Part shown: in pieces, positions 1 through 34,729 of the stretch
How the letters are laid out: every line of letters starts with the position of its first letter
How positions within the stretch are numbered: position 1 is the first letter of the stretch
Notes under the pieces: generated by a model
Told to the model about the DNA's origin: nothing
Seen by the model: the letters and a program-made list of their open reading frames with translations, nothing else
Database searches by the model: none
IMG/VR virus record: IMGVR_UViG_3300028392_000148
Location: 1 to 37,424 of that record
Origin: a virus
Reading direction: 5' to 3' (one strand)
DNA: 37,424 bases
Position numbers and translations under genes: made by a program

Positions 1-162
1 GACCGTATGGATGCGATGGTGTGGGCTATGCATGAGCTAATGGAATCACAGTCCAGTATTATGGGTTTAGCATCACTAGCGAAATTCTGTCCATCATGTA
101 GGATGCCGATCACTCGGTCAGCGACTATCTGCACTTACTGCTCAACACCTTTGGAGAACTAA
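1..162 (+). CDS. Terminase large subunit, C-terminal end only (partial copy)
   Basis: An open frame runs from base 1 to TAA at 160-162 and encodes the last 53 residues of the large terminase. It is the same as the end of the complete gene at 35088-36431; bases 1-119 match 36270-36388 exactly, and base 120 differs silently (TCA versus TCT, Ser). It includes the zinc-ribbon-like tail with two CxxC pairs (CPSC and CTYC). It is partial because the window opens inside the gene, not because the gene is broken. The stop overlaps the next start as TAATG. Confidence 0.9.
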   Translation, partial: DRMDAMVWAMHELMESQSSIMGLASLAKFCPSCRMPITRSATICTYCSTPLEN

Positions 163-372
163 TGGCTTTCATAAATCTGCCACCTAGTTTGCAGGGCATC
201 ATCTCTAACATTGAGAACAGGCTGGCCAAGTTGGAGTTGGGGAAACGCTTTACTTTTCCGAATGTGTCTTCTGATCCGGCTAACCCTAGGAAGGGAGATG
301 CCTGGCTGAATGTGACTAGTAACACACCTAAGTATGTGGATGCGACTGGAGCAGTCAGCACATTCGGTGGTG
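1..372 (+). repeat. Left part of end overlap (matches 36270-36641)
   Basis: This segment is repeated at 36270-36641 at a constant offset of 36269 with only scattered substitutions (for example at base 120 and around 200-210). It covers the end of terL and the first 70 or so codons of the adhesin-like gene. The match stops in the glycine-rich linker, where the two adhesin versions diverge. I infer end overlap of a circular or circularly permuted phage map rather than a true internal duplication. Confidence 0.85.
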
Positions 373-998
373 GCGGAGGTGGTTCACCAGCAACAACTTA
401 TTTTGGGCCACGCTATATTTTAAGTGGTTATTATTATTCGCCTTATTTCTACAATGAGAATTACAACAACATTAACGGAATTCCAGACCAAATAAATTTA
501 ACAATAAATACAATGTATGCAATGCCGTTTATGATTCCATCTAATACAACTGCAACATCTATTTTGATTAGAGGATTAAAAGGTGGAGTTCCTAATCCAA
601 GCGTAAGGTTGGGAATTTATAGCAACAGTAGTGCAGGTCAAGATTATCCTGACGCTAGACTTTTAGACGCTGGTGTTGTGTCTGTAACTAATGCGGTGAC
701 TTGGACAAATTACAGCATTACAATAGGTCAAGCCTTAACTGCAAATACCTTGTATTGGCTTGTAATGGTAAATCAAACAGCGTCGTCCTTTTACTACAAT
801 TTGGGTGCAAGTAAAGAAAATAAAAGTCCATTTATGCCACAAATAACGCTAGCTAATATAAATAGCAGTTTTGATTATGGTAGTCAACAAACAGTTTTGG
901 CTTGGACGCAGACAGGTGTAACTGGTGCATTGCCCGCTAACTTTACTGCAACTAAAACAGAGTCCTATGCGGCACCGTTGATTTGGTTAGGTTTCTAA
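162..998 (+). CDS. Adhesin-like / putative receptor-binding virion protein, allele A
   Basis: This 278-aa protein has three parts. Residues 1-70 are a conserved N-terminus with a short helical stretch (IENRLAKLELGKRF) and a segment ending DATGAVSTFG. Then comes a glycine linker, and then a beta-rich, Asn/Thr/Tyr-rich domain. The N-terminus is nearly identical to the gene at 36431-37216, while the C-terminal domain is only distantly similar (shared RLGIY, DYP and LLDAG). This pattern fits a phage fibre or receptor-binding protein: fixed virion-binding base, variable tip. No enzyme motif is visible. The C-terminal domain is visibly richer in A/T than its neighbours. The start (TAATG with terL) is firm. 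The function is inferred; a head fibre or decoration protein is the alternative. Confidence 0.6.
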   Translation: MAFINLPPSLQGIISNIENRLAKLELGKRFTFPNVSSDPANPRKGDAWLNVTSNTPKYVDATGAVSTFGGGGGGSPATTYFGPRYILSGYYYSPYFYNENYNNINGIPDQINLTINTMYAMPFMIPSNTTATSILIRGLKGGVPNPSVRLGIYSNSSAGQDYPDARLLDAGVVSVTNAVTWTNYSITIGQALTANTLYWLVMVNQTASSFYYNLGASKENKSPFMPQITLANINSSFDYGSQQTVLAWTQTGVTGALPANFTATKTESYAAPLIWLGF

Positions 999-1209
999 TG
1001 GCAATACAAACAATTATTTACGGTGAAGGCGGTTTCTGTGAAACCTGCGATGACACACACGACCATCCACTACACAACATTCTGGAGCAGATAGAAGTAG
1101 CAGATCCAGAACCGACAGCAGAGCAGAGAGCGAAAGAATCGGCCATGGCGAAACTAAGAGCGTTAGGATTAACTGATGAAGAGATACAGGCGATGATTGG
1201 TAAATAATG
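985..1209 (+). repeat. Right part of end overlap (matches 37203-37424)
   Basis: Homology between the two ends resumes at the last codons of the adhesin gene and runs through the small downstream gene to the portal ATG. Bases 1083-1209 are identical to 37298-37424, which is 127 bases and reaches the very last base of the window. Upstream of that, the two copies differ at several positions. An exact 127-base terminal match is what a k-mer assembler can leave at a graph junction (inference). Confidence 0.85.
998..1207 (+). CDS. Small protein with Cys/His-rich N-terminus (possible zinc binding)
   Basis: This 69-aa protein (MAIQTIIYGEGG...) starts at ATG 998 as TAATG with the adhesin gene; an upstream TTG at 983 is less likely. 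Residues about 13-26 contain FCETCDDTHDHPLH, a Cys-x2-Cys followed by several His, which could hold a metal. The second half is helical and ends with LTDEEIQAMIGK, a form typical of short phage head proteins. A second, slightly different copy is at 37216-37422. It sits between the adhesin and portal genes in one operon. The function is unknown; it could be a virion-assembly or fibre-attachment factor. Confidence 0.7.
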   Translation: MAIQTIIYGEGGFCETCDDTHDHPLHNILEQIEVADPEPTAEQRAKESAMAKLRALGLTDEEIQAMIGK

Positions 1210-3087
1210 GGACTACTAGATAACTTTGCCAAGCGTGTGGCAGACCAGATCACCAAAGCATCACCAGATGTTGCACCGATACCTGAGTGGCAGATGCAAC
1301 AGCAACGCTCATACGGTAACACCGTAGCTCTACCCAGAGATCCAAATCTGGCCAATGTGCCTTTCACACCAGGCTTGCCTTTAGTCCCTGGCTCTATCAA
1401 CCCAGTCAGACCTGATGGCAGACCTGACCCACGGCGATACGAATACCAAGTCGCTCAGAACATCAACATCACCGAAACACGGCTCATCCCTTTCAAGACT
1501 CTCAGGGCAGCAGCCGAACAGATAGACATCTTACGCCGATGTGTTGAAGTGATGAAACAGAAGATGGTTGGTCTAGAGTGGGACATCGTTCTCGGTGAAG
1601 ATGCTGTAGAGAAAGTCATGGCAGAGTCAGGTGAGAAGAACCGGATTAGAGCTATGTCTATCGCCAAAGACAAATTCGGTGAAGAGATCTCTAGAGCCAA
1701 GCAGTTTTGGGAAGTGCCAGACCTGAGCAACGGCCTGATCTTCGCTGACTGGCTAAACATGGCTTTAGAAGACATCCTAGTGTTAGATGCCTGGGCTGTA
1801 TGGCCACAGAAGACAGTAGGTGGTGACCTTCGTGGCTTGCAGGTGCTAGATGGCTCTACCATCAAACCTTTGATTGATGATCGTGGTATGCGACCATTAC
1901 CACCACAGCCAGCGTTCCAACAAATCTTGTATGGTTTCCCACGCTCAGAGTTCGCTGCTCCATCTGAAGGTGAAGATGTGGATGGCGAATTCACTAGCGA
2001 TGAACTGCAATACATGATCAGGAATCGCAGAACCACCACCATCTACGGTCTGTCACCAGTAGAGCGAGCATTACCTTTGGCTGACATTTATCTACGCCGT
2101 CAACAATGGATTCGTGCTGAATACACCGATGGCGTGTTACCTGAGCTCATGTTCAAGACTGATGCAAACTTCGGTAACAACCCTGATCTGCTCAGAGCCT
2201 ATGAGAACATCCTGAATGATGATTTGGCTGGTCAGACAGAACAGCGTAAGCGAGCCAGGTTACTACCTGCCGGACTTGACCCTGTGCAGATGGATGGCTA
2301 CGGCGAGAAGTTCAAAGATGTGTTAGATGAGTTCCTTGTGACCAGCATCTGTGGCCATTTCGGTGTCATGCCAACAGAAATTGGTTTCACACCTAAGACT
2401 GGTTTGGGTGGTGCAGGTCATCAGGCTGGTGAAGCCACATCATCTGAAGTGATTGGTTTGATTCCACTATCTCAATGGGTTGGCAGGATGCTGTCCCAAA
2501 TGTCTTATGTGTTCTTAGGTATGCCGAGAGAACTAGAGTTCAAGTTCATGCCATCTGACCGTAATGACTCTCAGGCTTTAGCTCAGACTATGGACAACAA
2601 AGTCCGTGGTGGCCGTATCACTCTCAATGAAGCCAGATCAGAAGAAGGTCTGCCACTCATAGATTCACCGTTAGCAGATCAACCTTTGTTTGTTGCTGGC
2701 TCTGCCGTATTTACTCTCACCGATGATGGTCTGATTCCTGTGACTGGTGGTGGCATAGATTCCAACAATTCTGGTGAAGCATCTGTTGCTGTGCCAACCG
2801 ATTCACAGCAGGAATTACCTGATGAGTCACCAGCAGACACTAGTGGCAAACCTGCCGAACCTGCTCCAGCAGAAGATGTTGATCAGAGTGAAGAAAGCCT
2901 GGACTTGATGGCACACAAAGCGGCCATTCAGGAATCTAAGGCTTTCATACGCTGGCTAAGAAAGTCACCAACCAGACCATTCACATTCACATCCATGCCA
3001 TCCACCTACGCTGAAACTCTAAACAAGTTCGTGGCACTAGGTGACTTTGATGGTGCTAGATGGTTTGCAGAGCGATACATCTCATGA
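1207..3087 (+). CDS. Portal protein
   Basis: This 626-aa protein should form the dodecameric portal ring at the capsid vertex through which terminase pumps DNA. It follows terL and precedes a MuF-type head protein, protease and capsid protein, the classic order. The sequence shows portal-type features: an N-terminal arm, a long alpha/beta region (for example KTLRAAAEQIDILRRCVEV), a stem-like segment ending near FRMPREL-type residues, and a low-complexity acidic/Pro/Ser tail around residues 530-575. There are no catalytic motifs, as expected. The start ATG at 1207 overlaps the upstream stop. Confidence rests on position plus family resemblance. Confidence 0.88.
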   Translation: MGLLDNFAKRVADQITKASPDVAPIPEWQMQQQRSYGNTVALPRDPNLANVPFTPGLPLVPGSINPVRPDGRPDPRRYEYQVAQNINITETRLIPFKTLRAAAEQIDILRRCVEVMKQKMVGLEWDIVLGEDAVEKVMAESGEKNRIRAMSIAKDKFGEEISRAKQFWEVPDLSNGLIFADWLNMALEDILVLDAWAVWPQKTVGGDLRGLQVLDGSTIKPLIDDRGMRPLPPQPAFQQILYGFPRSEFAAPSEGEDVDGEFTSDELQYMIRNRRTTTIYGLSPVERALPLADIYLRRQQWIRAEYTDGVLPELMFKTDANFGNNPDLLRAYENILNDDLAGQTEQRKRARLLPAGLDPVQMDGYGEKFKDVLDEFLVTSICGHFGVMPTEIGFTPKTGLGGAGHQAGEATSSEVIGLIPLSQWVGRMLSQMSYVFLGMPRELEFKFMPSDRNDSQALAQTMDNKVRGGRITLNEARSEEGLPLIDSPLADQPLFVAGSAVFTLTDDGLIPVTGGGIDSNNSGEASVAVPTDSQQELPDESPADTSGKPAEPAPAEDVDQSEESLDLMAHKAAIQESKAFIRWLRKSPTRPFTFTSMPSTYAETLNKFVALGDFDGARWFAERYIS

Positions 3088-4334
3088 CCTTCTGGCATCG
3101 GGTAGATGGAGCTCTGACTAGGACATCAGCCAGATACTCTACAGATCTCAGAGATGCTCTAGTCAAATCCATTGACATTCAGAAGATTGTTGATGACTGG
3201 ACAGCCACACATCCAGCCGGTGGAGAAACCACGCCACAACAGGCCAGAGAATGGGCGAGCATTCATGTTCGCTTTACTGATCAGGATGTGCTGACTGCTC
3301 TCCGAAACATTTACGGTGCAGGATACCTGTTAGGGTCAGATTCGGCTCAGGCTGCTGTAGCGTTTCAGCGACTGAAGAAAGCATCCAGCAATGATGACAT
3401 CTTTGGCAAACTACAGATTGACTGGAATACATGGACACCAGGTGGCAATCTGGGTGAAGTGCTAGTCAGGCCTAAAGGTGGTTTACAAGCGTTGCTAGAT
3501 AAAGCCAACGCCACTATCAGGGGATTGAATGCCACCACTATCAACAGGATTGGCACAAGGCTTGCTGATGCTTTGAAGACTGGTGCATCAGGTGCAGAGT
3601 TAGGTAAGAATTTGGAAGACATTGTGGGTGATCCTGTGCGAGCCTATACGATAGCCAACACCGAGATGAAGCGAGCCATGTCTAATGGAGCGATGGACAA
3701 CTACCGTGATCTGGGTGTGGAGAAGATGGAATGGTCTGCTCTAGATCCATGCGATTTGTGTGCAGAGTTTGATGGACAGCAGAGAGCTATCGGTGAAGAG
3801 TTTGGGGAAGATGTGACAGAGCCACCGGCTCACACTAACTGCCGATGCACAGTCATGCCTGTGCCACAGTTCACAGGTGAAGATGACAGTAGTGACGATG
3901 AAGAATCTGACTCTATTGAGATGTCTGCTCACATTGAGAAAGGTGTGCCAGGGCCGTGGGAAGTGGCCAGAGCATTGAGCCGTCTAGAAGTGCTACCTAA
4001 TCCAGCACATCCAGAACTAGATAATCCGTTGAAGTTTGTAGAGTCACCGTGGCAGGTTGTGCCTGTGCCTACTGTTGATCCGAACCTGTGGGATGATGCG
4101 ACTGTTGAAGTGCATGACCTAGATGAGCTCTATGCAACAGATCAATGGTTGAAGCGTAAGAAGATAGCGAAACACATTGAAGCGATGGGTCAGGCTATAA
4201 CACCGTTTAGATCTCTGCCACTTATCGCCATAGTAAATGAGCAGAGTATCATTATTGATGGGCATCACCGTTTGATGGCTGTCTGGCTTTTGGGTCAGCA
4301 ATCATCGGCAGCATACACAATCAGGATTGGATAG
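3084..4334 (+). CDS. MuF-type head morphogenesis protein fused to a ParB-like domain
   Basis: This is a minor capsid/head morphogenesis protein of 416 aa. I chose ATG 3084 because it forms ATGA with the portal stop; an in-frame ATG at 3060 is possible. The MuF signature is at residues about 222-256: LDPCDLC followed by PPAHTNCRC, the usual Cys/His cluster. After an acidic Asp/Ser linker, residues about 330-416 form a second domain with the sequence IIIDGHHRLMA, matching the DGHHR motif of ParB/sulfiredoxin-like folds. MuF proteins often carry variable C-terminal domains that may be delivered with the genome; ParB-like domains can act as nucleases or NTP-dependent clamps. Whether this one is active is unknown. 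Confidence 0.85.
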   Translation: MTFWHRVDGALTRTSARYSTDLRDALVKSIDIQKIVDDWTATHPAGGETTPQQAREWASIHVRFTDQDVLTALRNIYGAGYLLGSDSAQAAVAFQRLKKASSNDDIFGKLQIDWNTWTPGGNLGEVLVRPKGGLQALLDKANATIRGLNATTINRIGTRLADALKTGASGAELGKNLEDIVGDPVRAYTIANTEMKRAMSNGAMDNYRDLGVEKMEWSALDPCDLCAEFDGQQRAIGEEFGEDVTEPPAHTNCRCTVMPVPQFTGEDDSSDDEESDSIEMSAHIEKGVPGPWEVARALSRLEVLPNPAHPELDNPLKFVESPWQVVPVPTVDPNLWDDATVEVHDLDELYATDQWLKRKKIAKHIEAMGQAITPFRSLPLIAIVNEQSIIIDGHHRLMAVWLLGQQSSAAYTIRIG

Positions 4335-4336
4335 TC

Positions 4337-4612
4337 ATGGCTCTAATACACATCAACACTCAGGTAGGCACTACATCAAATCTATTGGTGAAAGTGAATC
4401 CTGGTGTTCAACAGACTGCTGTGCAGATTTACAACAACACAGGTGCAACCATCTATCTAGGTGACAAGTCCATCACAGCCACAGGTGCGACTATCGGTAA
4501 CGCTTTGGCTACAGGATCATCTGTCCAGATTTGGTTGTGTGCAAATGATGAGCTATACGCCATCTGTGCTACATCACCATCAGGCTATGTGTCTGCTATC
4601 TACTCAGGTTAA
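4337..4612 (+). CDS. Small beta-rich head protein (possible decoration protein)
   Basis: This 91-aa protein starts just after the MuF gene. The sequence is rich in Thr, Gly and Ile with alternating hydrophobic residues (for example TAVQIYNNTGATIYLG and SSVQIWLCANDELYAI), so I expect a compact beta barrel or sandwich. There is no signal peptide or membrane segment. Its place between MuF and the prohead protease suggests a virion role such as capsid decoration or fibre. I do not recognise a specific family. Confidence 0.6.
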   Translation: MALIHINTQVGTTSNLLVKVNPGVQQTAVQIYNNTGATIYLGDKSITATGATIGNALATGSSVQIWLCANDELYAICATSPSGYVSAIYSG

Positions 4613-4622
4613 GGTTTAGATA

Positions 4623-6359
4623 GTGAGTTTCAAGCCACCATCAGAAGTGCAGTCAAATGCCAAACGGGGATTAGAGCTCAGAGCCAAACACAACCGTGGT
4701 GGCACAGAAGTGGGTGTGGCCAGAGCCAGAGATTTATCTAATGGCACATCGGTATCGCTAGACACCATCCAACGGATGAATTCCTACTTTGCCAGACACG
4801 AAGTGGATAAGAAAGGCGAAGGTTGGGGAGTTGATTCAGCCGGATACATCGCCTGGCTGTTGTGGGGTGGAGATGCCGGATGGTCATGGGCTAAAGGTAT
4901 CCTTAGAGATGAAGAGAAGAAAGACAAAACAACAATGAGTGATTTCGCAACCAGTTATGCAGCCATCATCAAACAAGAGAAACAGGAAGATGGCACTCTA
5001 AAGGTTTACGGTAAGGCAACCGATGACAGCCTAGACATAGACAATCAGATCTGTGATGAGTCCTGGCTGAAGAGAGCCATGCCTGACTGGTTTCAGTCTG
5101 GTGGCAATGTGCGAGAACAGCACAGCAACATCGCTGCTGGTGTAGCCACAGACTACGAATCTAAAGCCGATGGACACTACATCACAGCACTAGTGGTTGA
5201 TCCGGTGAGTGTGAAGAAAGTAGAAACTGGTGTTCTAAAGGGTTTCAGTATCGGCATTAGAGCTCCACGCCTAATCAGAGATGAGAAGGCTGTGAATGGC
5301 CGTATCGTTGATGGACAGATCATTGAAGTGTCATTGGTTGATAGACCTGCGAACCCTAACGCTAAACTAATGTTAGCCAAAGCATCACAGTCAGGAGAAC
5401 TTATGGCAGTATCACAGACTAGCGTTCCATCACCAGCAGATGTGGCTCGCTTAATTGTTAAGAGCGATGACTCTATTGAAGAGAGTGTCACAGATGCACC
5501 AGCGACTGAAGAAGTAGTTGCTGATCAGGAAGCAGTAGTTGAAGAAATCGTTTCAGAGCCTGTTGCAGAAGTAGTGGCAGATGAGCCGATAGCAGAACCT
5601 GAATTATCTGAAGAAGATGTCCAGGCTGTTGAACTAATCAACGAAGTAAAGAGCATCCTGCCTACTCTAGTCAAATACGATCAGGCCACATTTGAGCGAG
5701 CCAGAGATGCACTATCTGATCTCATCATTGTTGAAGCGACAGAGCAGAAACAAGGCAGCGATGAGCGTGACAGCATCAAAGAGCTATTGCAGTCCATCAA
5801 GCATCTGTTCCATTGGTATGCAGGTGAAGTCGCTGAAGGTGAAGTTGTTTCACCAGATCCAGCCATCGTTGGAGATGATGCTGATGACATTTACATGGCA
5901 GCAGATAGTGAAGTCACTTGTATGTGTAAGTGTGACAAGTGTGCAGACTCTAAGGGATGCGATTTAGAAGATTGCAAATGTGACATGAGCAAATCTGTCA
6001 CAGCAGAACTAAACTTGACTACTGATGAAGGCGTGGTTGCTAACATCGTAGAGAAAGCGGTGGCACAAGCCAGAGTCGCTGTTACTGAAGAGATTGCATC
6101 TCTGCAATCTGCATTAAAGGCAGAGCAAGAGAAAGCAATTCAGTTGCAGGGTGATCTGGAAACCGCTCAGAAGGCAGTAGTCGCTGGTGGGCCGAAACGC
6201 TCTACCATCACAACCAAATCAAATGACTCATCAGAACTTCTAACCAAGTCTGCTGAGTATCTAATCAAAGCTAAGAACACGGCAGACCCTGTGCTGGCAC
6301 AAGGCTATCGTGACCTGGCTAAAGACCTTCGCAAACAAGCGGAGAAAGGTAAACAATGA
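4623..6359 (+). CDS. Prohead protease fused to scaffold-like region, with Cys cluster
   Basis: This 578-aa protein starts at GTG 4623. Residues 1-98 are a helical, Trp/Gly-rich N-terminal domain (NAKRGLELRAKHNRGG ... YIAWLLWGGDAGW). Residues about 100-250 resemble HK97/XkdF-type prohead proteases: a candidate His near residue 165 (REQHS), a candidate Ser near 209 (KGFSIGIRA), and the conserved EVSLVDRPANP. The rest looks like a scaffold: an acidic Val/Glu/Ala-rich stretch (about 285-330), helices, and a coiled coil (about 480-525). Residues 433-453 hold seven cysteines (C433, 435, 437, 440, 446, 451, 453), unusual for a scaffold. It lies directly before, and overlaps, the capsid gene. It should cleave itself and capsid arms during maturation. 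Confidence 0.82.
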   Translation: MSFKPPSEVQSNAKRGLELRAKHNRGGTEVGVARARDLSNGTSVSLDTIQRMNSYFARHEVDKKGEGWGVDSAGYIAWLLWGGDAGWSWAKGILRDEEKKDKTTMSDFATSYAAIIKQEKQEDGTLKVYGKATDDSLDIDNQICDESWLKRAMPDWFQSGGNVREQHSNIAAGVATDYESKADGHYITALVVDPVSVKKVETGVLKGFSIGIRAPRLIRDEKAVNGRIVDGQIIEVSLVDRPANPNAKLMLAKASQSGELMAVSQTSVPSPADVARLIVKSDDSIEESVTDAPATEEVVADQEAVVEEIVSEPVAEVVADEPIAEPELSEEDVQAVELINEVKSILPTLVKYDQATFERARDALSDLIIVEATEQKQGSDERDSIKELLQSIKHLFHWYAGEVAEGEVVSPDPAIVGDDADDIYMAADSEVTCMCKCDKCADSKGCDLEDCKCDMSKSVTAELNLTTDEGVVANIVEKAVAQARVAVTEEIASLQSALKAEQEKAIQLQGDLETAQKAVVAGGPKRSTITTKSNDSSELLTKSAEYLIKAKNTADPVLAQGYRDLAKDLRKQAEKGKQ

Positions 6360-14879: not shown

Positions 14880-16058
14880 ATGGCTTTACGCACACCACCG
14901 TCATGGCTTCAGAATGGTTCGCATCCTGCTGAAAATGACCGTCTAACACTTCAGAGCTGGATTTCTAGCACAGGCATCATCGGCTCAACTTCACTTGCTG
15001 TGACTGCTCAGGCATCTCCGAACATGACTGTGAATGTGGCTACAGGATGGTGTGCCATTCTCTCTAGCACATCTAATGCTGGCGTGTATGTGGCTTACAA
15101 TGATGCGACTACCGTGCTGGCCATTGCTACAGCAGATCCATCTCTGCCACGCAAAGACATTGTTGTGGCTACGATTTCAGATTCATACTATTCAGGATCA
15201 ACAAACACCGTGGCATTCCAGGTCATCGCTGGAACAGCAGCAGCATCACCTGTTGCACCATCTACTCCAAGCAACTCTATTCTTCTGGCTACCATCGCAG
15301 TAGCAGCAGCGACAACAGCAATTTCATCAGCCAACATTACTGATGGAAGAACATCTGCCACATCAAACTTGGTGAGCTCTGTTTTGAGTAGCGGATCATT
15401 TACTTCATCTCTGGTGACTGCTGTTGGCACAACATCACTTGCACCTTTGAGATTTCAGTCAGGCACAAACCTGACCACAGCGACTGGTGGTGCTGTTGAA
15501 TACGATGGTTCTGTCGCATACTTGACACCTAACATCTCTGCCACTAACACATCAAATGGTGGCCGTGCTTTGCTACCAGCCAGGTATTTCTATGCTCTAA
15601 ATGGCGATAGAACTCTGACTCCAGCATCAACTGCTATTCAATCTCAGTTTGGTGTTGGTGTGGCTTTGGCCGCATCCACCACTTATGAAGTGGAACTTGT
15701 CAGCCGTATCTCCAGCACACAATCAGCGACATCAACAAACTACAATGTGACTTTGGGATTTAGCTCTGCTCCGACAAGCATAACTGGAACGACTTTATCT
15801 GGATTAGCAAACTCAACAGCAACAATCAACATCATCTCGTCAGGTAGCTTCACAGCCTACACATCAGCATCAGCATCCACTATCACCATCCCTATTGTGG
15901 TCAAGGCACTTATCAGAACAAACGCTGCCACTACATTCACTCCACAACTTACGGTTTCAACCACAGCATCATCTGCTCTGTCCATCCTTAGCGGATCATT
16001 TGTGAAAGTCACTCCAACCGGATCAGCATCTGTCACAGGAATCGGAGCATGGGCATAA
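14880..16058 (+). CDS. Minor tail / baseplate-periphery protein
   Basis: This 392-aa protein is rich in Thr, Ser and Ala. The first 160 residues (SWLQNGSHPAENDRLTLQ; PRKDIVVATISDSYY; SNSILLATIAVAAATTAIS) match the type of minor tail protein seen in many actinophages, with a short repeat-like linker. The rest is a beta-rich domain that could face the host. AGGAG is placed well before ATG 14880. A role in host contact or side fibre attachment is inferred. Confidence 0.65.
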   Translation: MALRTPPSWLQNGSHPAENDRLTLQSWISSTGIIGSTSLAVTAQASPNMTVNVATGWCAILSSTSNAGVYVAYNDATTVLAIATADPSLPRKDIVVATISDSYYSGSTNTVAFQVIAGTAAASPVAPSTPSNSILLATIAVAAATTAISSANITDGRTSATSNLVSSVLSSGSFTSSLVTAVGTTSLAPLRFQSGTNLTTATGGAVEYDGSVAYLTPNISATNTSNGGRALLPARYFYALNGDRTLTPASTAIQSQFGVGVALAASTTYEVELVSRISSTQSATSTNYNVTLGFSSAPTSITGTTLSGLANSTATINIISSGSFTAYTSASASTITIPIVVKALIRTNAATTFTPQLTVSTTASSALSILSGSFVKVTPTGSASVTGIGAWA

Positions 16059-18911: not shown

Positions 18912-20003
18912 ATGACTGTCTATCGCTATCTGTTCGCTGACCTACTCACCAACCAGGTGTTGGCAGAACTGCCAATCACAAATGTGAACTTCACTCAGCA
19001 ACTCAACTCTGCTGGCTCACTATCAGGCACTATCCTACTCAGCGATGTGTCTGAGAGAACATACAACATCTACAACTCCACTATTCCAGCGAGAACAGCA
19101 TTGTATGTTGATCGTGATGGTGTGCTGGTTTGGGGTGGCATCATCTGGTCAAGAGATTATGATTCAGCCACTCAGCATCTGTCCATCAACGCACAAGAAT
19201 TTGAGTCTTACTTCAGCAAACGAAGAATCACGGCCAACGCCGTATTTACTAACACAGATCAATTGACCATAGCTCAATCATTGGTGACTACTGCTCAAAG
19301 TGCTACAGGTGGCAACATCAATGTGATTGTTGGTTCTGAAACATCAGGCATCTTGGTGAGTCGCACCTACTATGCATCCGAACTGAAGCCGGTCTATCAG
19401 GCTTTGATTGATCTCAGTCAATCTACTCAGGGATTTGATTTCTTGATTAAGGTGGCATACAACACGGCCATGCAGCCTACTAAGACTCTGGTGCTTGGCT
19501 ATCCACAAGGCGGCACTAGATACTCATCTACTAATCCATCTGCTCCAGTATTTGAGTTCCCTTCAGCCAACATCATTGACTACCAATACAAAGAAGATGG
19601 CTCTCTGACTGCTAACACTTTCACCGTGTTTGGTGCTGGCTCTAATGAAGGTCAACTGCAATCTGTAGCCGTCAACTCTAGCCAGGTGACTGCTGGATGG
19701 CCGTTACTGGAAGATGTGGCCAACTACTCTGATCTGAATGATGCTACCCTGCTGGCCAACATTGCATCTGGCAGATTGAATGCTGTCATCAATTCACCTG
19801 TGACCTTGCAGATAGTTGCACCGCCGTATGTAGCTCCAGTCTTAGGCACTTATGGCATAGGTGATGACATCAGGATCAGGATTGTAGATGACCGATTCCC
19901 GAATGGTTTAGATGCTATTTATAGGCTTGTGGGATTGACTGTGACTCCAGGTGAATCAACTGGTGAGCGAGTAGTCCTAAGCCTGACTCTGCCATCCCAG
20001 TAG
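18912..20003 (+). CDS. Minor tail protein, Gp37-like (tail hub)
   Basis: This 363-aa protein resembles the ReqiPepy6 Gp37-like minor tail family: YRYLFADLLTNQVLAELPI at the N-terminus, then VNFTQQLNSAGSLSGTI, ARTALYVDRDGVLVWGGIIW, and a C-terminal strand-rich part with LVGLTVTPGE. Proteins of this kind form part of the tail hub near the Dit and Tal proteins. It lies after the lysis genes, so the lysis island interrupts the tail module. Confidence 0.8.
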   Translation: MTVYRYLFADLLTNQVLAELPITNVNFTQQLNSAGSLSGTILLSDVSERTYNIYNSTIPARTALYVDRDGVLVWGGIIWSRDYDSATQHLSINAQEFESYFSKRRITANAVFTNTDQLTIAQSLVTTAQSATGGNINVIVGSETSGILVSRTYYASELKPVYQALIDLSQSTQGFDFLIKVAYNTAMQPTKTLVLGYPQGGTRYSSTNPSAPVFEFPSANIIDYQYKEDGSLTANTFTVFGAGSNEGQLQSVAVNSSQVTAGWPLLEDVANYSDLNDATLLANIASGRLNAVINSPVTLQIVAPPYVAPVLGTYGIGDDIRIRIVDDRFPNGLDAIYRLVGLTVTPGESTGERVVLSLTLPSQ

Positions 20004-21659: not shown

Positions 21660-22508
21660 ATGGCAACAGCATTAGCGGTGTCATCAGATCAGAAAGCCTG
21701 GGATGCCACACAGTTGGCCGCACTCAAGCAGATTGGTCTAACCGATGCACCACAGGGCGATCTCGCTCTATTTCTGCACTACTCACAAAGAACCGGACTA
21801 GACCCATTCAGCCGTCAGATTTACATGATTGGCCGATGGGATGGCAAGTCTGGTTCAACTAGATACACCATCCAATCCAGCATTGATGGACTCAGAATCA
21901 TTGCTCAGAGATCTGGTGAATACGCTGGTCAGACTGCACCCATGTGGTGTGGTGAAGATGGTGTATGGCAGGATGTGTGGCTATCTAAGACTCCACCTAC
22001 AGCATCAAAGGTTGGGGTTTACCGTCAGGGGTTTGTTGAGCCACTCATCGCTGTAGCTCGCTTGAGTTCGTATCAGCCAGTCAATCGTGATGGCAAGCCT
22101 ATGGGACTTTGGTCAACCATGCCTGATGTGATGCTGGCGAAGGTCGCTGAGTCTTTGGCACTTCGTAAAGCATTTCCGAATGACTTGTCTGGCATCTATA
22201 CGACTGAAGAGATGGAGCAAGCCGATGTGAAGGCAACTCCAGTTCAACCAGTAGCATCTGTCAAGGCAGTCCAGGCTGATGTGGTGGATGCTGAGATAGT
22301 GGTGGCTGATGATAGCCGTCAGGCCATTGTTTCTGCTATCGCTCAGGCTACAGACAAACAGCAGTTGCGACAGATCTGGGCTGACAATGCTGCCGATCTC
22401 AACACACCATGGGTGAATTCTCTGGGTGACAGCGTGACACTAGCTCAACTAATCATGTCTAGACAGAAAGAAGTCAAGGCTGATTCGGGGGTGACATCTA
22501 ATGCCTAA
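21660..22508 (+). CDS. RecT/Bet-family single-strand annealing recombinase
   Basis: This 282-aa protein matches phage Bet/RecT recombinases: LGLTD-like opening, FLHYSQRTGLDPFSRQIYMI (about residues 42-61), YTIQSSIDGLRIIAQRSGEY, and MPDVMLAKVAESLALRKAFP followed by DLSGIYTTEEM. These bind single strands and anneal them, usually with a partner exonuclease. The partner here is probably the Cas4/RecB-like nuclease at 29387. The C-terminal 80 residues are a variable region. Confidence 0.88.
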   Translation: MATALAVSSDQKAWDATQLAALKQIGLTDAPQGDLALFLHYSQRTGLDPFSRQIYMIGRWDGKSGSTRYTIQSSIDGLRIIAQRSGEYAGQTAPMWCGEDGVWQDVWLSKTPPTASKVGVYRQGFVEPLIAVARLSSYQPVNRDGKPMGLWSTMPDVMLAKVAESLALRKAFPNDLSGIYTTEEMEQADVKATPVQPVASVKAVQADVVDAEIVVADDSRQAIVSAIAQATDKQQLRQIWADNAADLNTPWVNSLGDSVTLAQLIMSRQKEVKADSGVTSNA

Positions 22509-25091: not shown

Positions 25092-25274
25092 ATGCTGAAA
25101 CTTCTCGCTCAATCCATCGTATGGCTAATCGGACTCTACATCGGGTTCGGCATCGTATGCACCATCTACGATTTCATCCTGACAATTCCCTGGCTGGCTA
25201 ACACACTACTAGTCATCATCATCATCATCTACTTGAATCTGCTAAGTGGCATCATCAAGAGAATCTGGGACTAA
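25092..25274 (+). CDS. Two-helix membrane protein (60 aa)
   Basis: Nearly the whole protein is hydrophobic: residues about 8-30 (IVWLIGLYIGFGIVCTIYDF) and about 35-53 (LANTLLVIIIIIYLNLLSG), ending IKRIWD. It overlaps the methyltransferase start by a base. An early membrane protein could alter host transport or exclude other phages; the function is unknown. Confidence 0.62.
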   Translation: MLKLLAQSIVWLIGLYIGFGIVCTIYDFILTIPWLANTLLVIIIIIYLNLLSGIIKRIWD

Positions 25275-25912
25275 TGCTCATCTTTGATTTCTTCTCAGGC
25301 ACAGGCTCATCCACTCAAGCATTCGCTGATGCTGGCGATACCGTCATCACCTTTGAACTAGATCCACAATTTGATGCCACCGAAACCATAGACATCCTGC
25401 ATCTCACATCAGAGTATCTGCTGAAGACCTATGGGCGGCCTGATTTCATTTGGTCATCACCACCATGCACAGCATTCTCTGTCGCATCTATCGGACATCA
25501 TTGGCAGTCGGGGGGGGCATTCCCTGTGCCTAAGACCGTGCAAGCCGTATTCAATCAGCGACTAGTGGAACATACAAAGATGTTGGCGAGAGAGCTCCAG
25601 CCACGCTACGGTTTCATCATTGAGAATCCTATGGGGATGCTTCGCAAGTTACCTGTGGTCGCTGATCTGAATCGCCGGAGCATCACATATTGCCAGTATG
25701 GTGACACTAGGCAGAAGCCAACAGACCTTTGGGGAGATGTGCCTGGATGGACTGCTAGACCTGCCTGTAAGCGTGGATCTGATTGTCATGAAGCAGCACC
25801 AAGGGGATCTCGGACTGGCACTCAGGGACTATCTAAAGCGAAGTATCGTTCTATGATTCCTTATGAGCTAGGGCTGGAGATTCGCACAGCGATAGTGAGT
25901 CACAATGCCTGA
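25274..25912 (+). CDS. C5-cytosine DNA methyltransferase-like protein, short form
   Basis: This 212-aa protein has motif I at the start (FDFFSGTGSSTQAFADAG, SAM binding), the catalytic PC loop (SSPPCTAFS, Cys 65), ENP (residues 117-119, motif VI), and QYGDTRQKPTDLW (about 135-147, motif VIII region). This is a short enzyme (usual C5 methylases exceed 300 aa), with no clear separate target-recognition domain. Phage members of this type are known; it could methylate phage DNA against restriction. The catalytic residues appear intact. Confidence 0.8.
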   Translation: MLIFDFFSGTGSSTQAFADAGDTVITFELDPQFDATETIDILHLTSEYLLKTYGRPDFIWSSPPCTAFSVASIGHHWQSGGAFPVPKTVQAVFNQRLVEHTKMLARELQPRYGFIIENPMGMLRKLPVVADLNRRSITYCQYGDTRQKPTDLWGDVPGWTARPACKRGSDCHEAAPRGSRTGTQGLSKAKYRSMIPYELGLEIRTAIVSHNA

Positions 25913-26837
25913 TCGCTTTGTTGGTAAAGATGGATTCAACCACACTCACGGCTCATCGGCTGCATACCTACATGGTGGATGCAGATGTGATGTCTGTCGC
26001 TCTAACAGGTCACAGAAACAGACTGCTCGCCGTAAACAAATAGCGTATGGTCGCTACGAGAACGCTCTAGTAGATGCAGAGCCGGTGAGAGAACACATGG
26101 CCATGCTCATGTCTTTCGGCATCGGAATTAACCGTATCGCAAAGATGGCAGGTGTCAGCCATCAGACCGTCTATCCACTAGTTTATGGTCGCACCACCTA
26201 TGACATCAAGAATGGCAAAGCACCATCCACCACTCGCATCAAGCGTGAAAGTGCAGAACGAATCTTAGCTCTGAAACCAACCGTTGCTGATCTGCCAGAC
26301 ATCATGCAAATCTCCAACCGTGGATTCATCAGGCGTGTCCAGGCTCTCAACTGTCTTGGATACAGCACCAGAGAGATTGGCAGCCTTCTAGGTTTCAGTA
26401 GCACCAGTCAGGTGTATCGCATGATGAAGAGCAGTCGCATACTGGTGGTCAATCATCGGGCCATGGATGACTTGTATCAGCGTTTAGAGTTCAAGCCAGC
26501 AGTAGCGATGGATAGCAAACACGCCACCAGGATCAGGAAGACTCAGGATCACGCTAAGGCTCACGGCTACATTCCACCAGCCGGATGGGATGACATTGAC
26601 TATCAGGCCGAGATAGTCGCACCAGATCCGTTGGACTTTGATACCCTGCTAACAGAGTTACTCATGCATCCACAGAGTGTCCATGTGCCGAAGGTTTTAC
26701 GAGCTCAGTTCTATGTCGCTTTGAGAGAGCGTGGATGGACTGATGGTGAGATAGCTGATGCTTTGGGTATCGCTAAATCCACGGTGTATGTGTGGTTTAG
26801 AAGAAATAATCCAGCGATGATGGAAGGTGTGCAGTAG
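25905..26837 (+). CDS. DNA-binding protein with GCRCxxCR N-terminus and HTH domains
   Basis: This 310-aa protein begins with HGSSAAYLHGGCRCDVCRSN, a Cys-containing motif widespread in actinobacterial phages and hosts. It has an HTH (about residues 74-96: IGINRIAKMAGVSHQTVYPL), a second (SGLGYSTREIGSLLGFSSTSQV area, about 150-165), and a third near the end (WTDGEIADALGIAKSTVYVWFRR, about 278-300). Several HTHs in one chain suggest a repressor, activator or origin-binding protein. It overlaps both methyltransferase loci and may control them. It contains no nuclease motif. Confidence 0.68.
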   Translation: MPDRFVGKDGFNHTHGSSAAYLHGGCRCDVCRSNRSQKQTARRKQIAYGRYENALVDAEPVREHMAMLMSFGIGINRIAKMAGVSHQTVYPLVYGRTTYDIKNGKAPSTTRIKRESAERILALKPTVADLPDIMQISNRGFIRRVQALNCLGYSTREIGSLLGFSSTSQVYRMMKSSRILVVNHRAMDDLYQRLEFKPAVAMDSKHATRIRKTQDHAKAHGYIPPAGWDDIDYQAEIVAPDPLDFDTLLTELLMHPQSVHVPKVLRAQFYVALRERGWTDGEIADALGIAKSTVYVWFRRNNPAMMEGVQ

Positions 26838-27400
26838 TGACTGTAAAGATTGGAAGCCTGTTCTCAGGTTATGGTGGCCTAGATTTGGCTGTCATGGAGA
26901 TGACTGGTGGTGAGATGGCGTGGCATTGTGAGTGGGATGATGCACCATCCAAGATACTGGAGAAACACTTTCCTGGTGTCCCCAACTATCGGGATGTCAC
27001 TCAGGTGGATTGGACTCAGGTTGAACCAGTAGATGTGCTGACCGGTGGATTCCCATGTCAGGATCTGTCTGTCGCTGGTAAGCGTAAAGGGTTACAAGAT
27101 GGAACACGCTCAGGTCTATGGTCTGAGTTCTATAAAGCGATTGAAATACTGAAACCTAGATTGGTGGTAATTGAAAATGTTAAAGGGATTCTTAGTGCAA
27201 AGGCCGATAGCGGTATGGAGTATGGATCTGAAATTATGGCTCAGGCCAACGGAAGACCTGTTCTCAGAGCTCTCGGTGCTGTATGCGGTGACCTTTCCGA
27301 AATCGGGTATGACTGCCGATGGACAACTATACGAGCAGCCGATGCCGGAGCTCCACACAACCGTGCCAGAGTCTTTATTGTTGCGTTCCCCAAAGGCTAG
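26837..27400 (+). CDS. C5-cytosine methyltransferase, catalytic part (motifs I-VIII)
   Basis: This 187-aa product starts at GTG 26837 and has motif I (FSGYGGLD), GGFPCQDLS with catalytic Cys 74, ENVKG (113-117, motif VI), and GYDCRWTTIRAADAGAPHNRARVFIVA (motif VIII). It stops at TAG 27398-27400, without a target-recognition region or motifs IX-X. Those lie in the next frame (27177-28490). A single base less in the CCCC run at 27388-27391 would join them into one 550-aa protein. The alternatives are a natural split enzyme, a +1 frameshift, or a sequencing error. The enzyme probably methylates cytosine in phage DNA. Confidence 0.75.
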   Translation: MTVKIGSLFSGYGGLDLAVMEMTGGEMAWHCEWDDAPSKILEKHFPGVPNYRDVTQVDWTQVEPVDVLTGGFPCQDLSVAGKRKGLQDGTRSGLWSEFYKAIEILKPRLVVIENVKGILSAKADSGMEYGSEIMAQANGRPVLRALGAVCGDLSEIGYDCRWTTIRAADAGAPHNRARVFIVAFPKG

Positions 27401-28490
27401 TGAAGGCTCTGGTGGTGCTTTGGGTGAAGCCGAAGCGTTAAGGCGTGGCAATACTGTTGGGGTTAGGGATCAGGTCATGGATCTGGTTGCAGAGCAGGGT
27501 CTGAAAGTTTCTAGAGTTGATTTGCTCATGACACCAACTGCTGTTGAAGGCGATGGTGGTGCAGTAGGTGAGAGAGTAAAGATTGCTAAGGGTCATTATG
27601 TGATGCTCAGAGATCAGGTGAAAGATTTGGTTGATGATCAAGAATTACTGCCTACACCTAACACCATGGAGCATCGGGAGATTAAGACACCTGAGCAGAT
27701 AGCAGAGCTGAAAGCTAAGAGTCCGGGTGGCTACAGGAATCTTCGTGAAGTGGTGGTCAATGAGATTGATGAGCCTGTGTTGATGCCGACACCTAGTGTG
27801 GCTCACATCAGGAATCATGATGAGTCTATTGAAGGTTATCTGGAGAGAAGGCAAGACTATTTGGATGGTAAGACTAAGGGGATGCCTGGTGTGTCTTTGG
27901 GTGTGGCTGTCAGGATGGAAACAGATGTTGAGCAGGATGTCCTGTTGCCGACACCTAAAGCCTTAGATGGTATTAAAGGAAATTTGAAGACTAGTCAGGA
28001 ACGGATTGAGTCAGGCCATCAGATTGATTTGCCAAACATCGCCATTGACTTATTGCAGACAAATGAGTCCGCTGAGATTGCACTTCTAGGCACACCGAGA
28101 ACATCATCTGCTAACGGATCAACATCATCACAGGTCGCTCTCGGAGCTCCAAAAGCCAGACTAGAAGACCAAGTAGAGAGTGCAAACGCCAACATAATTT
28201 CATGGGGCAAGTTTGAGTCAGCGATACGCCGTTGGGAAGCGATGATAGACAGACCAGCACCAGCACCAACACTTCCAGATGGCCGAGATGGAGCTCACCG
28301 GCTCTCACCGTGGCTATGCGAATGGATGATGGGCTTACCTGAAGGATGGATTTGTGATCCTGAGATTGGACTCACTCGCAACCAGATGCTGAAGGCTGCT
28401 GGTAATGGTGTAGTGCCACAACAAGCATATCTAGCTCTAGAGATACTGGGTGTCAAAGAAATCCTTGGTTTAGACACGCCGAAGCCTTAA
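27177..28490 (+). CDS. C5-cytosine methyltransferase, recognition region and motifs IX-X
   Basis: The frame contains no stop from before 27171 to 28490. If independent, ATG 27177 (or TTG 27171) is a likely start, but the RBS is weak. It has an FPKSGMTADG segment, then several LLPTP-type repeats (LMTPT, LLPTPN, LMPTPS, LLPTPK, LLGTPR), and a C-terminus HRLSPWLCEWMMGLPEGW, then AAGNGVVPQQAYLAL, which are motifs IX and X of C5 methylases. It overlaps the catalytic ORF by over 220 bases in the +1 frame. It would be either the second subunit of a split enzyme or the end of a frameshifted single gene. Confidence 0.65.
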   Translation: MLKGFLVQRPIAVWSMDLKLWLRPTEDLFSELSVLYAVTFPKSGMTADGQLYEQPMPELHTTVPESLLLRSPKASEGSGGALGEAEALRRGNTVGVRDQVMDLVAEQGLKVSRVDLLMTPTAVEGDGGAVGERVKIAKGHYVMLRDQVKDLVDDQELLPTPNTMEHREIKTPEQIAELKAKSPGGYRNLREVVVNEIDEPVLMPTPSVAHIRNHDESIEGYLERRQDYLDGKTKGMPGVSLGVAVRMETDVEQDVLLPTPKALDGIKGNLKTSQERIESGHQIDLPNIAIDLLQTNESAEIALLGTPRTSSANGSTSSQVALGAPKARLEDQVESANANIISWGKFESAIRRWEAMIDRPAPAPTLPDGRDGAHRLSPWLCEWMMGLPEGWICDPEIGLTRNQMLKAAGNGVVPQQAYLALEILGVKEILGLDTPKP

Positions 28491-28891
28491 GGCAAATTTG
28501 CGACTCATCTCTGATGGTGTTTAGACTTCCAAATCTGCACCACATCAGAGATCGGGAGATCGTTGGACTGATGTAAAGTCAAACCTGCTCACGCCTAACC
28601 AGCGGAGATACCAGCCGTTAAAGGGTCACGGGTTTGTCGCATCCTGATGGTGAGCCTGGATGACACCTGCTGAAAAGAGTGCAGGAGATCACACATCACG
28701 CCATGAAAACGAGCATCCTTGTGGCATGGGAGAGAGTGCTGTGTGAGTATGGCGATGCTGTAGAGATTCTCTACCCATGATCAACGCTTGAAGTCCTATA
28801 CGACTGTCTGGCTTGGGGATGGCTGGCACTAAGCCATTCCCTGCTCTCAGAGCCTTCCGACTGCTAAAAGTCCCCAATGTAACGGTTTGAT

Positions 28892-28904
28892 AACTTCTGA
28901 AGTT
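28892..28904 (+). promoter_or_regulatory. Palindrome AACTTC-T-GAAGTT (operator candidate)
   Basis: A perfect 6-1-6 inverted repeat lies about 90 bases before ATG 28991. The size and symmetry suit a dimeric HTH regulator. It is within the non-coding region described above, near the start of the nuclease operon. Confidence 0.45.
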
Positions 28905-28951
28905 TCTTGCTGAAATGTTCCAATTTGGGGTCTGGAAATGAGATGATGGAT

Positions 28952-28973
28952 GTATCAGGAATTGGCCTGATAC
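28952..28973 (+). promoter_or_regulatory. Hairpin in leader of gene 28991
   Basis: GTATCAGG (28952-28959) pairs perfectly with CCTGATAC (28966-28973) around AATTGG. It is followed by AATAAGGGAGATCCAA and ATG 28991. The layout mirrors the leader at 24754-24795: an 8-bp hairpin, then GGGAGA and CCAAATG. A translation or mRNA-stability function is inferred. Confidence 0.55.
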
Positions 28974-28990
28974 GAATAAGGGAGATCCAA

Positions 28991-29368
28991 ATGAACAAGG
29001 TAATAGATCCAGCAGTAGCTTTAGAGTCACTAGTCACCAAGACTGGACTTCGTATTGAGCAGTTGACTGAAAAGCGTAACAACACAATTAGCAAACTGGC
29101 TACTGCCAGCACAGCCGGTGACATTGAATTCCTGATTCAAATTGATGCAGAACTGAATGCTTCTAAAGAGCTAAAGACCATCATCAAGAATCTGGTAGAA
29201 GATAAAGGCATGAGTGCTGAAGATGTCTTTGCACACCTGACTCGCTCATACACTCGTCAGGCTCTAAACACTCACTTCGCTAACTCATCATCAAACATCT
29301 ATCTGGAGATTGAGTTACGCCAACGCCAGCAGTATGCAATCATCGCTGCTGATCTAAACGGATTCTAA
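28991..29368 (+). CDS. Hypothetical helical protein (125 aa)
   Basis: ATG 28991 follows GGGAGATCCAA. The protein is mostly helical (ALESLVTKTGLRIEQLTEKRNN; EFLIQIDAELNASKELKTIIKNL), with a central GMSAEDVFAHLTRSYTRQALNTHF that could be an HTH-like fold. It is the first gene of the nuclease operon, and ends with LRQRQQYAIIAADLNGF. The function is unknown. Confidence 0.65.
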   Translation: MNKVIDPAVALESLVTKTGLRIEQLTEKRNNTISKLATASTAGDIEFLIQIDAELNASKELKTIIKNLVEDKGMSAEDVFAHLTRSYTRQALNTHFANSSSNIYLEIELRQRQQYAIIAADLNGF

Positions 29369-29386
29369 GAGAGAGAAGACTATCTC

Positions 29387-30307
29387 ATGGATGCAAAGAA
29401 ATTAACTGACCTGCTACTGGCACAAGATGATGCCAGACCACGCTCACAACAGAAAGCCATAGGCGTGAGCTCACTCGGTGACTGCCGTAGAAAGGTCTGG
29501 CACATGAGTCAGGGCCATGAAGGGACAAACACAACACTCAGGCTCGCATCAATGCTTGGCACAGCAATCCACGCCATGATTGAGAGTGCAGTCGCTGAAG
29601 ATGGTGTGCTGATAGAACATCGGGTTGAGAACCCTGGTCTGCCACCAGCGACCATTGACTACTTTGATACTCGCACCGGTGAAGTGGTGGATTGGAAGAC
29701 AATCAAACTTTCAGGCGTGGATTACTTTGTGACCAAACAGAAACGCTGGCAGGTGCAAACCTACGGCTACCTGATGTCACTCGCTGGCTATGAAGTGAAA
29801 ACTGTCACACTAGTGGGCATACCTAGAGATGGATCAGAGAATGACATCATCATCCACTCAGAGCCATACGATGAGCAGATAGCTCTGGAAGCGTTGGCAT
29901 GGCTGAAAGATGTGGAGTCACAGACAGATGCACCTGAGCCAGAACGCGATCCTGTTTCTTTCTGCTCCAACTACTGTCCGTTCTATGGATCTCTGTGTGC
30001 AGGTAAAGCACCAGATTTCTCTGGCACACCGATAGTCAATGATGAAGCGACCAAAGCGGCCAGCCGATACATTGAGATCAACACCACCATCAAACAGTTG
30101 GAATCTGAGAAAGATGCAGTCAAGTCTGCTCTGGAAGGTGTTTCAGGTATCACCATAGATGGCATCAAAGTATCCTGGTCTGAGATTGCTGGCAGGAAGT
30201 CACCAGATACTGATGAGATTCTCAGACTGTTGCAGACTCATGTGGATGAGTCCATGGAGATACCGATGAAGACCGGTATGGCATCGGTCAGATTGAATGT
30301 GAAATGA
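29387..30307 (+). CDS. Cas4/RecB-type PD-(D/E)XK exonuclease with Fe-S cysteines
   Basis: This 306-aa protein shows the nuclease core: H62 (HAMIE), D102-x-K104 within GEVVDWKT, and QxxxY (Q122, Y126). Cys 33 (LGDCRRKVW) together with C193, C197 and C204 (FCSNYCPFYGSLC) matches the 4Fe-4S arrangement of Cas4 and AddB nucleases. It should chew DNA ends and give single strands for RecT/Bet annealing. The C-terminal 90 residues form a helical region with a beta end. It stands about 7 kb after recT. There are no Cas1/Cas2 genes, so no CRISPR link. Confidence 0.88.
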   Translation: MDAKKLTDLLLAQDDARPRSQQKAIGVSSLGDCRRKVWHMSQGHEGTNTTLRLASMLGTAIHAMIESAVAEDGVLIEHRVENPGLPPATIDYFDTRTGEVVDWKTIKLSGVDYFVTKQKRWQVQTYGYLMSLAGYEVKTVTLVGIPRDGSENDIIIHSEPYDEQIALEALAWLKDVESQTDAPEPERDPVSFCSNYCPFYGSLCAGKAPDFSGTPIVNDEATKAASRYIEINTTIKQLESEKDAVKSALEGVSGITIDGIKVSWSEIAGRKSPDTDEILRLLQTHVDESMEIPMKTGMASVRLNVK

Positions 30308-30387
30308 TGGGCTGGCAGTTTATAGCTGGAGCAGTCCTGATCATCATTGTCCAAGGAATCGTTGCATACATTTGGAGAGATAAGTGA
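30304..30387 (+). CDS. Membrane micro-protein (27 aa)
   Basis: ATG 30304 overlaps the nuclease stop as ATGA. It encodes 27 aa of which about 20 form one membrane helix (FIAGAVLIIIVQGIVAYIW), ending RDK. Direct coupling to both neighbours supports it. The function is unknown. Confidence 0.55.
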   Translation: MMGWQFIAGAVLIIIVQGIVAYIWRDK

Positions 30388-30494
30388 TGGATGAAGAACA
30401 GCAGATGCTCTACGGTTGTGCAGTCATAGGCTGTGCAGCGTTGGCTCTCATCGTAGCCACTCTCATCGCAGTCATCATCCTGATGGTGGCATGA
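30387..30494 (+). CDS. Membrane micro-protein (35 aa)
   Basis: ATG 30387 overlaps the preceding stop (TGATG). It encodes MDEEQQMLYG then a hydrophobic helix (CAALALIVATLIAVIILMVA) to the end. Paired with the 27-aa peptide, it may form a small membrane complex. The function is unknown. Confidence 0.55.
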   Translation: MDEEQQMLYGCAVIGCAALALIVATLIAVIILMVA

Positions 30495-30739
30495 TGAGAA
30501 GTGCAGACACACTCATGGCCGTAGATCTGCAACAAGAGCTAGACGGTGACACACCTGAGAAGCGACTCAAAGCCAGATGGCTACAAGGCTATAAGACTGG
30601 TAAAAGAATTCAGCGACAGCGACTGCTAGATCTGCTGGACAAACTAGAGATTTACAATCTAGAAACTGCTACACATCAATCCCCATTTCGGATGCCATAC
30701 AGAGAGCTCCGAGAACTAATCATGGAAGAAATCAAATGA
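30491..30739 (+). CDS. Small helical protein (82 aa)
   Basis: ATG 30491 (or 30494) overlaps the preceding stop. The protein is basic and helical (EKRLKARWLQGYKTGKRIQRQR, then LLDLLDKLEIYNLET), ending YRELRELIMEEIK. It carries the R-x-R-I/L-x-x-L-L segment also found in neighbours. The function is unknown. Confidence 0.62.
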   Translation: MMRSADTLMAVDLQQELDGDTPEKRLKARWLQGYKTGKRIQRQRLLDLLDKLEIYNLETATHQSPFRMPYRELRELIMEEIK

Positions 30740-30981
30740 TCATAACTATCTGCACACTAGCCATCATCACGGTGGCATCAATCATCATTGCTATTCGCAG
30801 TCACATTAAGTCAGTCAAGTTCTTGAAGGCTGCCGACACGGTGATGGTGGATCTCAGCAAATCATTCATGGATGCTGGTCGCATCGGTGAGAAACATCGC
30901 ATCATCAGACTACTCAGAGATAACGGGATGCAGAGAGCATCTGACCTGATACTAAAGGAAGGCAAAACCAATGGCAAGTAA
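30736..30981 (+). CDS. TM plus helical protein (81 aa)
   Basis: A membrane helix (IITICTLAIITVASIIIAI) is followed by a cytoplasmic helical part with EKHRIIRLLRDNG and ASDLILK. It overlaps its neighbours by 4 and 11 bases. The function is unknown. Confidence 0.62.
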   Translation: MIITICTLAIITVASIIIAIRSHIKSVKFLKAADTVMVDLSKSFMDAGRIGEKHRIIRLLRDNGMQRASDLILKEGKTNGK

Positions 30982-31198
30982 AACAACAGATCAAGTGGGT
31001 GACATCTACCAGGCTGCAGCACAAGAGCAAATAAAGCGACTCATCGCTCAAGGTGTCAAAGAAGAGCGTAACCGTATAGAAGCGTGGCTGGCCAAGATGC
31101 TGTGCAAACCATACAGAGAAGCCGGTGTCTGTGATGACATCTACTGCCATGTCTATGATGAGCTACTCACAAAGCTAGATGAAGAGAGCAACAAGTGA
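30971..31198 (+). CDS. Small helical protein (75 aa)
   Basis: Helical, with QIKRLIAQGVKEERNRIEAWLAKML, one more E-x-x-R-I segment, then CKPYREAGVCDDIYC, a Cys-containing loop. It overlaps both neighbours. The function is unknown. Confidence 0.62.
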   Translation: MASKTTDQVGDIYQAAAQEQIKRLIAQGVKEERNRIEAWLAKMLCKPYREAGVCDDIYCHVYDELLTKLDEESNK

Positions 31199-31818: not shown

Positions 31819-31827
31819 GAAGGCAAC

Positions 31828-32100: not shown

Positions 32101-32102
32101 CC

Positions 32103-34720: not shown

Positions 34721-34729
34721 GCTGTAACT

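Follow-up and report, generated by a model that had tools for sequence, protein, structure and literature searches.

The stretch of viral DNA analyzed here (hereafter the window) is the 37,424-nucleotide record IMGVR_UViG_3300028392_000148, positions 1 to 37,424, and it carries at each of its ends a gene for a putative adhesin that lies between the gene for the large terminase subunit (terL) and the gene for the portal protein. At the left end, the plus strand leads from the 3' end of terL (1–161) into an adhesin gene encoding 278 amino acids (162–998; allele A), in which an N-terminal domain (N-domain; approximately 162–377), a glycine-rich linker reaching to about position 389, and a C-terminal tip (390–995; GC content 37%) can be distinguished. 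The start codon of a small gene (998–1207; 69 amino acids; CxxC..HxHPLH motif) overlaps the stop codon of the adhesin gene (TAATG), and the portal gene follows (1207–3087; PF04860, E-value 1.2e-13; phrog_2662, 1.5e-55). At the right end, again on the plus strand, the terL gene (35088–36431; PF03237, 3e-25; PF17289, 6.6e-18) is followed by adhesin allele B (36431–37216; 261 amino acids; N-domain 36431–36646, tip approximately 36647–37213) and by a small gene of its own (37216–37422; 68 amino acids), whose start likewise overlaps the adhesin stop codon (TGATG). The end of the terminase carries a zinc-ribbon-like extension (36350–36428), for which weak Pfam matches were obtained (E-value 0.006).

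Direct comparison of the two ends shows that positions 1–1209 and 36270–37424 represent one locus present twice (terL end, adhesin, small gene, and portal start), as an initial annotation made from the nucleotide letters had claimed. On the plus strand, the first 119 nucleotides of the window are identical to positions 36270–36388, and positions 1083–1209 are identical to the final 127 nucleotides (37298–37424), a match whose right limit is the end of the contig; this end-to-end match is beyond chance by far. The DNA between these flanks had been described as strongly divergent. This description holds both for the DNA, which is barely alignable between the alleles, and for the encoded tips, which share 34% protein identity, and it can be refined in three respects. 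First, the tips are homologous and possess a common core motif (RLGIYxN..SA..DYP..LLDAG.VS). Second, high similarity on the left extends to about position 377 (six mismatches in 377 nucleotides, mostly within the final 55), and similarity on the right restarts at about position 980, in the final adhesin codons. Third, the 5' part of the small gene (998–1082) also diverges between the alleles, and the exchanged block therefore consists of the tip and the start of the small gene. Because the two end copies differ across about 600 nucleotides of the tip, the window does not possess direct terminal repeats in the sense of identical ends.

A second contig, IMGVR_UViG_3300009154_000586, reveals how these ends are connected. 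Over its whole length of 13,773 bp it aligns to the window as one ungapped block with 99.87% identity, running from position 28008 to 37424 and then onward from position 1210 to 5565. It carries a single cassette, whose tip is identical to tip B, and scattered single-base differences suggest that it stems from another assembly than the window. Since this ungapped alignment crosses the ends, the two ends of the window must be adjacent in nature, with terL, adhesin B, the small gene, and the portal gene forming a continuous array; the circular map previously postulated is thus supported by a separate contig. The left flank of allele A also matches this contig closely, with one mismatch in the first 322 nucleotides.

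To describe the origin of the contig, we modeled the two circular haplotypes that the window implies (A: bases 1–36269; B: bases 1210–37424) as a de Bruijn graph with k = 127. The graph contains two branch points and three unitigs: a core of 35,306 nucleotides (1083–36388), an A arm of 1,217 nucleotides, and a B arm of 1,163 nucleotides. Joined in the order A arm, core, and B arm, these unitigs reproduce the window minus 8 bases at its start, and because these bases are missing the left exact match comprises 119 rather than 127 nucleotides. The final base of the window falls exactly on a predicted graph node, so that the repeat at 37298–37424 corresponds to the predicted end node of the B arm and its counterpart at 1083–1209 to the k-mer junction. 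An assembler path that entered one allele at the start and the other at the end, as proposed earlier, is precisely what this graph yields. For metaSPAdes, end overlaps with the length of the maximal k-mer have been documented, and 127 is among the maximal values in use (PMC10914622). Taken together, these data support the view that the contig was assembled from a mixture of particles that share a backbone and differ in their attachment tips.

Comparison across relatives resolves the adhesin into a conserved N-domain of about 70 residues, a glycine linker, and an exchangeable beta-sandwich tip, an arrangement of conserved anchor and variable C-terminal tip as expected of a receptor-binding protein. 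For the N-domain, a helix and a small hairpin were predicted with low confidence; an initial model computed from nine sequences (pLDDT 62) was poor in the linker and the N-domain and was used for the order of the elements only. Searches of Pfam, PHROGs, and NCBIfam provided no function for either full-length adhesin beyond weak tail and domain matches. The tail region was examined in 16 relatives. In each of these, the gene for the N-domain immediately follows the counterpart of the window gene for a minor tail protein (18912–20003, plus strand; phrog_1885, 4.8e-67), and the N-domain is encoded there either as a standalone protein of 70–85 amino acids or fused to a tip. In the window, by contrast, the adhesin gene lies between terL and portal; no N-domain is encoded behind the tail gene, and neither N-domain nor tip was found elsewhere in the window. 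One relative (L170/L267; record 3300033571_004674) has a terL-portal gap of 12 nucleotides and carries the complete adhesin together with the small gene behind the tail gene, and in two further loci (L173, L175) the tip forms the C-terminal end of long, collagen-like proteins encoded among the tail genes. In yet another record (3300009182_000011; loci L258 and L259), the tip is joined to a different N-terminal part and lies, with the small gene, shortly before portal; a standalone N-domain is still present behind the tail gene.

AlphaFold, given 49 sequences, models tip A as a beta-sandwich (pLDDT 85). Among solved structures, those nearest to it are a capsid-unit protein of cyanophage A4, the phi812 baseplate, the Douge central fibre, and the Bxb1 tail tip; the carbohydrate-binding module (CBM) families 6, 35, and 36 come next after these phage proteins. 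With the Bxb1 and Douge proteins and the three CBM families the tip shares the beta-sandwich fold at a low sequence identity of 10–21%. A profile built from 49 tip members matches the A4 protein (9jwb_Z) by sequence as well (E-value 3.9e-7), and a nine-member full-length alignment searched against the sequences of solved structures returned noise only. Given the predicted fold, the profile match, and the position of the N-domain in relatives, a role of the adhesin as a host- or glycan-binding virion protein appears well supported; attachment to the tail is likely, and attachment to the capsid is possible. A close-relative search of genome_contigs with tip B returned no match and hence no link to a prophage or host.

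We surveyed the interval between terL and portal in 80 distinct relatives and scored it as empty when the gap was 30 nucleotides or less. It is empty in 31 of them, whereas 11 carry an N-domain adhesin there, 29 carry fibre modules (of collagen-like and other types, with an IDQ-type first protein as the marker), and five carry an M23-type peptidase set; one relative possesses both a fibre and an adhesin. Judged from these gene arrangements, the terL-portal junction appears to behave as a cargo position for host-contact modules. At L018, L023, and L119, this slot contains a third, unrelated tip class that is followed by a different small gene (51 amino acids) and that resembles the C-terminus of a virion protein encoded at positions 14880–16058 of the window (26% identity).

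The small partner gene is a recurrent companion of the tip. In the fetched loci its motif (GxGGxCxxCDxxHDHPLxN) is present at 15 distinct places, and at every one of them the gene immediately in front bears a tip, an association that is in part selected because many of the loci were fetched via the tip. Small proteins of this type (CxxC..HxHPL; about 36–69 amino acids) are encoded in the window and at L173, L176, L179, L182, L202, L206, L216, and L227. No family was assigned in Pfam or NCBIfam; by its motif the protein is possibly zinc-binding. We put forward, as a tentative proposal that we ourselves doubt somewhat more than we trust, that the terL-portal junction is a dedicated cargo slot of this clade, that the tip and the CxxC..HxH small gene form a mobile exchange unit in which the small protein serves as a tip-specific assembly factor or cap and is swapped with the tip, and that the anchor-tip gene as a whole has relocated between the tail cluster and the slot. 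If the small partner gene does encode a tip-specific factor, it could serve as a marker by which fibre tips of aquatic phages are located.

The N-domain and the tip have had separate histories across the relatives, with the tip moving independently. Alleles A and B are 93% identical in the N-domain and 34% in the tip, and L014 and L018 show the same relation (88% and 22%); the reverse applies to allele B and L014 (N-domain 59%, tip 77%) and to L018 and L119 (63% and 79%). By a maximum-likelihood tree, the tips of the window species group do not form one group (p-AU 2e-65 against such a grouping), even though the terL proteins of these phages are 96–100% identical. When allele B is compared with two other species, homology ends at 36645–36653, in the glycine linker, and restarts at 37195–37206, in the final adhesin codons; the borders between A and B coincide with these. 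The base composition of the two tips differs as well. The GC content of tip A is 37.4%, the lowest value among 1,424 core segments of the same size being 43.4%, and that of tip B is in line with the genome; the nearest kin of tip A (the tips of L001 and L016) have 39–40% GC. This composition fits the acquisition of tip A from a relative richer in AT, and a foreign-looking and a native-looking tip thus occur on the same backbone. Candidate agents of exchange are encoded on the plus strand of the window, namely a RecT-like single-strand annealing protein (21660–22508; phrog_2780, 4.9e-69) and a RecE/Cas4-like exonuclease (29387–30307; phrog_1674, 8.5e-29).

We consider it probable that the window represents one phage species with a circular map of about 36.2 kb and with two alternative accessory adhesin cassettes between terL and portal, the tips of which are exchangeable. 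The N-domain would anchor the adhesin to the virion, probably to the tail, and the tip would bind a glycan on the cell surface. Homologous recombination between conserved flanks, with the terL 3' end and the N-domain on the left and the small gene on the right, would replace the tip together with the start of the small partner gene, possibly with the assistance of the RecT-like protein and exonuclease of the phage itself, and such a replacement would change which host strains are bound.

Several points weigh against this reading. The k-mer junction proposed in the initial annotation stands at the right end (127 nucleotides, ending on the predicted node) and is incomplete at the left, where the exact match of 119 nucleotides lacks the full k-mer signature. 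The co-presence of A and B in one metagenome is implied only by the assembly graph; allele A could derive from another lake or date if samples were co-assembled, or a closely related sister species could be its source, and a search with one exact 26-nucleotide pattern, from which the record of the window itself was perhaps excluded, found tip A in no other IMG/VR contig. The best homologue of the tip, in structure and in sequence, is a capsid-unit protein and not a tail protein, and since the gene in addition lies among packaging genes, a location on the head is possible. Carbohydrate binding is suggested by the fold alone, and the RecT-like protein and exonucleases, which could act on the conserved flanks, are putative agents of the exchange.

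An adhesin on the head, i.e., a fibre or decoration protein of the capsid that adheres to cells or glycans, would alter the location only and would be compatible with the assembly described above, the alleles being real in either case. The closest solved relative of the tip, which belongs to the asymmetric unit of the cyanophage A4 capsid, the place of the gene between packaging and portal genes, and the empty slot in 31 of the 80 relatives are all in keeping with it. We nevertheless judge it unlikely, albeit worth serious consideration, since the N-domain of the relatives is encoded immediately behind the minor tail protein, long collagen-like proteins encoded in the tail region end in the tip, and the other structural neighbors are tail-tip and baseplate proteins.

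A chimera between species, in which tip A belongs to a related phage that shares at least 127 identical bases at the small gene and portal start and onto which the assembler jumped, is improbable. Related species with the same cassette architecture do exist (L271 with 93% identity in the terL-cassette-portal block; L269 and L270 with about 80–83%), and no separate record ties tip A to the core of the window. However, over its first 322 bases the left flank of allele A departs from the same-species contig at a single site only. The next species shows 2.6% divergence in terL and 4.2% in the N-domain, and at such divergence, long exact stretches on both sides would not be expected.

The literal reading of the contig would be a linear genome with allele A at one end and allele B at the other, either as terminal repeats or as two receptor-binding genes. 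A tandem of A and B in one molecule is very unlikely because the sister contig has a single cassette and then runs directly into portal, and because each of 22 related records contains one match to the N-domain (over residues 2–26 only in G004; a second match in G002 covers the tip and not the N-domain). In addition, the window stops exactly k = 127 bases beyond the final difference between A and B, as the assembly graph predicts. In phage DNA the terminal repeats are mutual copies, and a difference such as that between A and B would not arise. Programmed variation within one genome, by a diversity-generating retroelement, an invertible cassette, or a phase-variable fibre, would also confine changes to a fibre tip between constant flanks, but it is very unlikely since the scans of the window detected neither a silent tip nor another N-domain, no inverted repeat flanking the locus, no template/variable repeat pair (nor any repeat pair besides the two allele flanks), and no reverse transcriptase among the scanned genes (some small open reading frames were unscanned), and since the tips differ over their full length, with insertions and deletions and a 10-point shift in GC content, unlike the outcome of targeted adenine mutagenesis.

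Elsewhere in the window, the alignment of a ParB-N/DNA methyltransferase gene (33560–34720) to three related species breaks at exactly position 34015 and restarts at 34676, which suggests a second exchangeable block in this genome. Several open reading frames for DNA methyltransferases lie in a row at positions 25274–28490; two of these (26837–27400 and 27171–28490) overlap and match different parts of cytosine methyltransferase families, and they possibly represent a frameshifted or split gene.

The reading that we favor, two exchangeable tips on the backbone of one species, has a practical corollary. Virus contigs classified as linear that possess imperfect end repeats can be complete circular genomes broken at a polymorphic locus, and detectors of terminal repeats will miss them. 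The window moreover provides a base-level view of the exchange of adhesin tips in one uncultured phage species, with defined breakpoints on the same backbone.

In the distal tail fibre adhesin of T-even phages, glycine-rich stretches flank the variable parts. Compared with the adhesin exchange of these phages (Tetart, Desplats and Krisch 1998, cited in PMC7468147), the window involves other proteins and another locus, a small anchor-tip protein encoded between terL and portal. Metaviromic islands of aquatic phages, in which strongly diverged host-recognition variants coexist on a nearly constant backbone (Mizuno et al. 2014, PMC3909814), and the flexible gene modules of cryoconite phages, with variants down to about 40% nucleotide identity on cores that are up to 99% identical and with up to five variants co-present (Bellas et al. 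2020, PMC7468147), are closer counterparts. The window shares with them a near-identical core (99.87% over 13,773 bp, with the one mismatch in 322 nucleotides in the left flank of A), highly diverged homologous variants at one locus (tips 34% identical, N-domains 93%), a conserved N-terminus with a variable C-terminal recognition domain, and a presumed origin by recombination. It differs in its terL-portal slot and in its CBM-like sandwich with a small partner gene instead of a C1q domain; furthermore, metaviromic islands are seen by read recruitment across metagenomes, whereas here the assembler left both variants in one contig. The phages E7 and F5 of 'Ca. Nanopelagicales', freshwater actinophages of about 39 kb and 45% GC, possess a 5-kb variable island around the tail fibre that covers part of the tail fibre and collagen-like proteins (PMC10202952). 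The window resembles them in size and GC content and has a WhiB gene, features that suggest freshwater actinobacteria as its hosts. It is a clear new case of a known kind of phage variation, that of the metaviromic islands, and no new kind of system; its less usual features are the slot between terL and portal, an anchor-tip gene that shifts between two positions, and the small gene paired with the tip.
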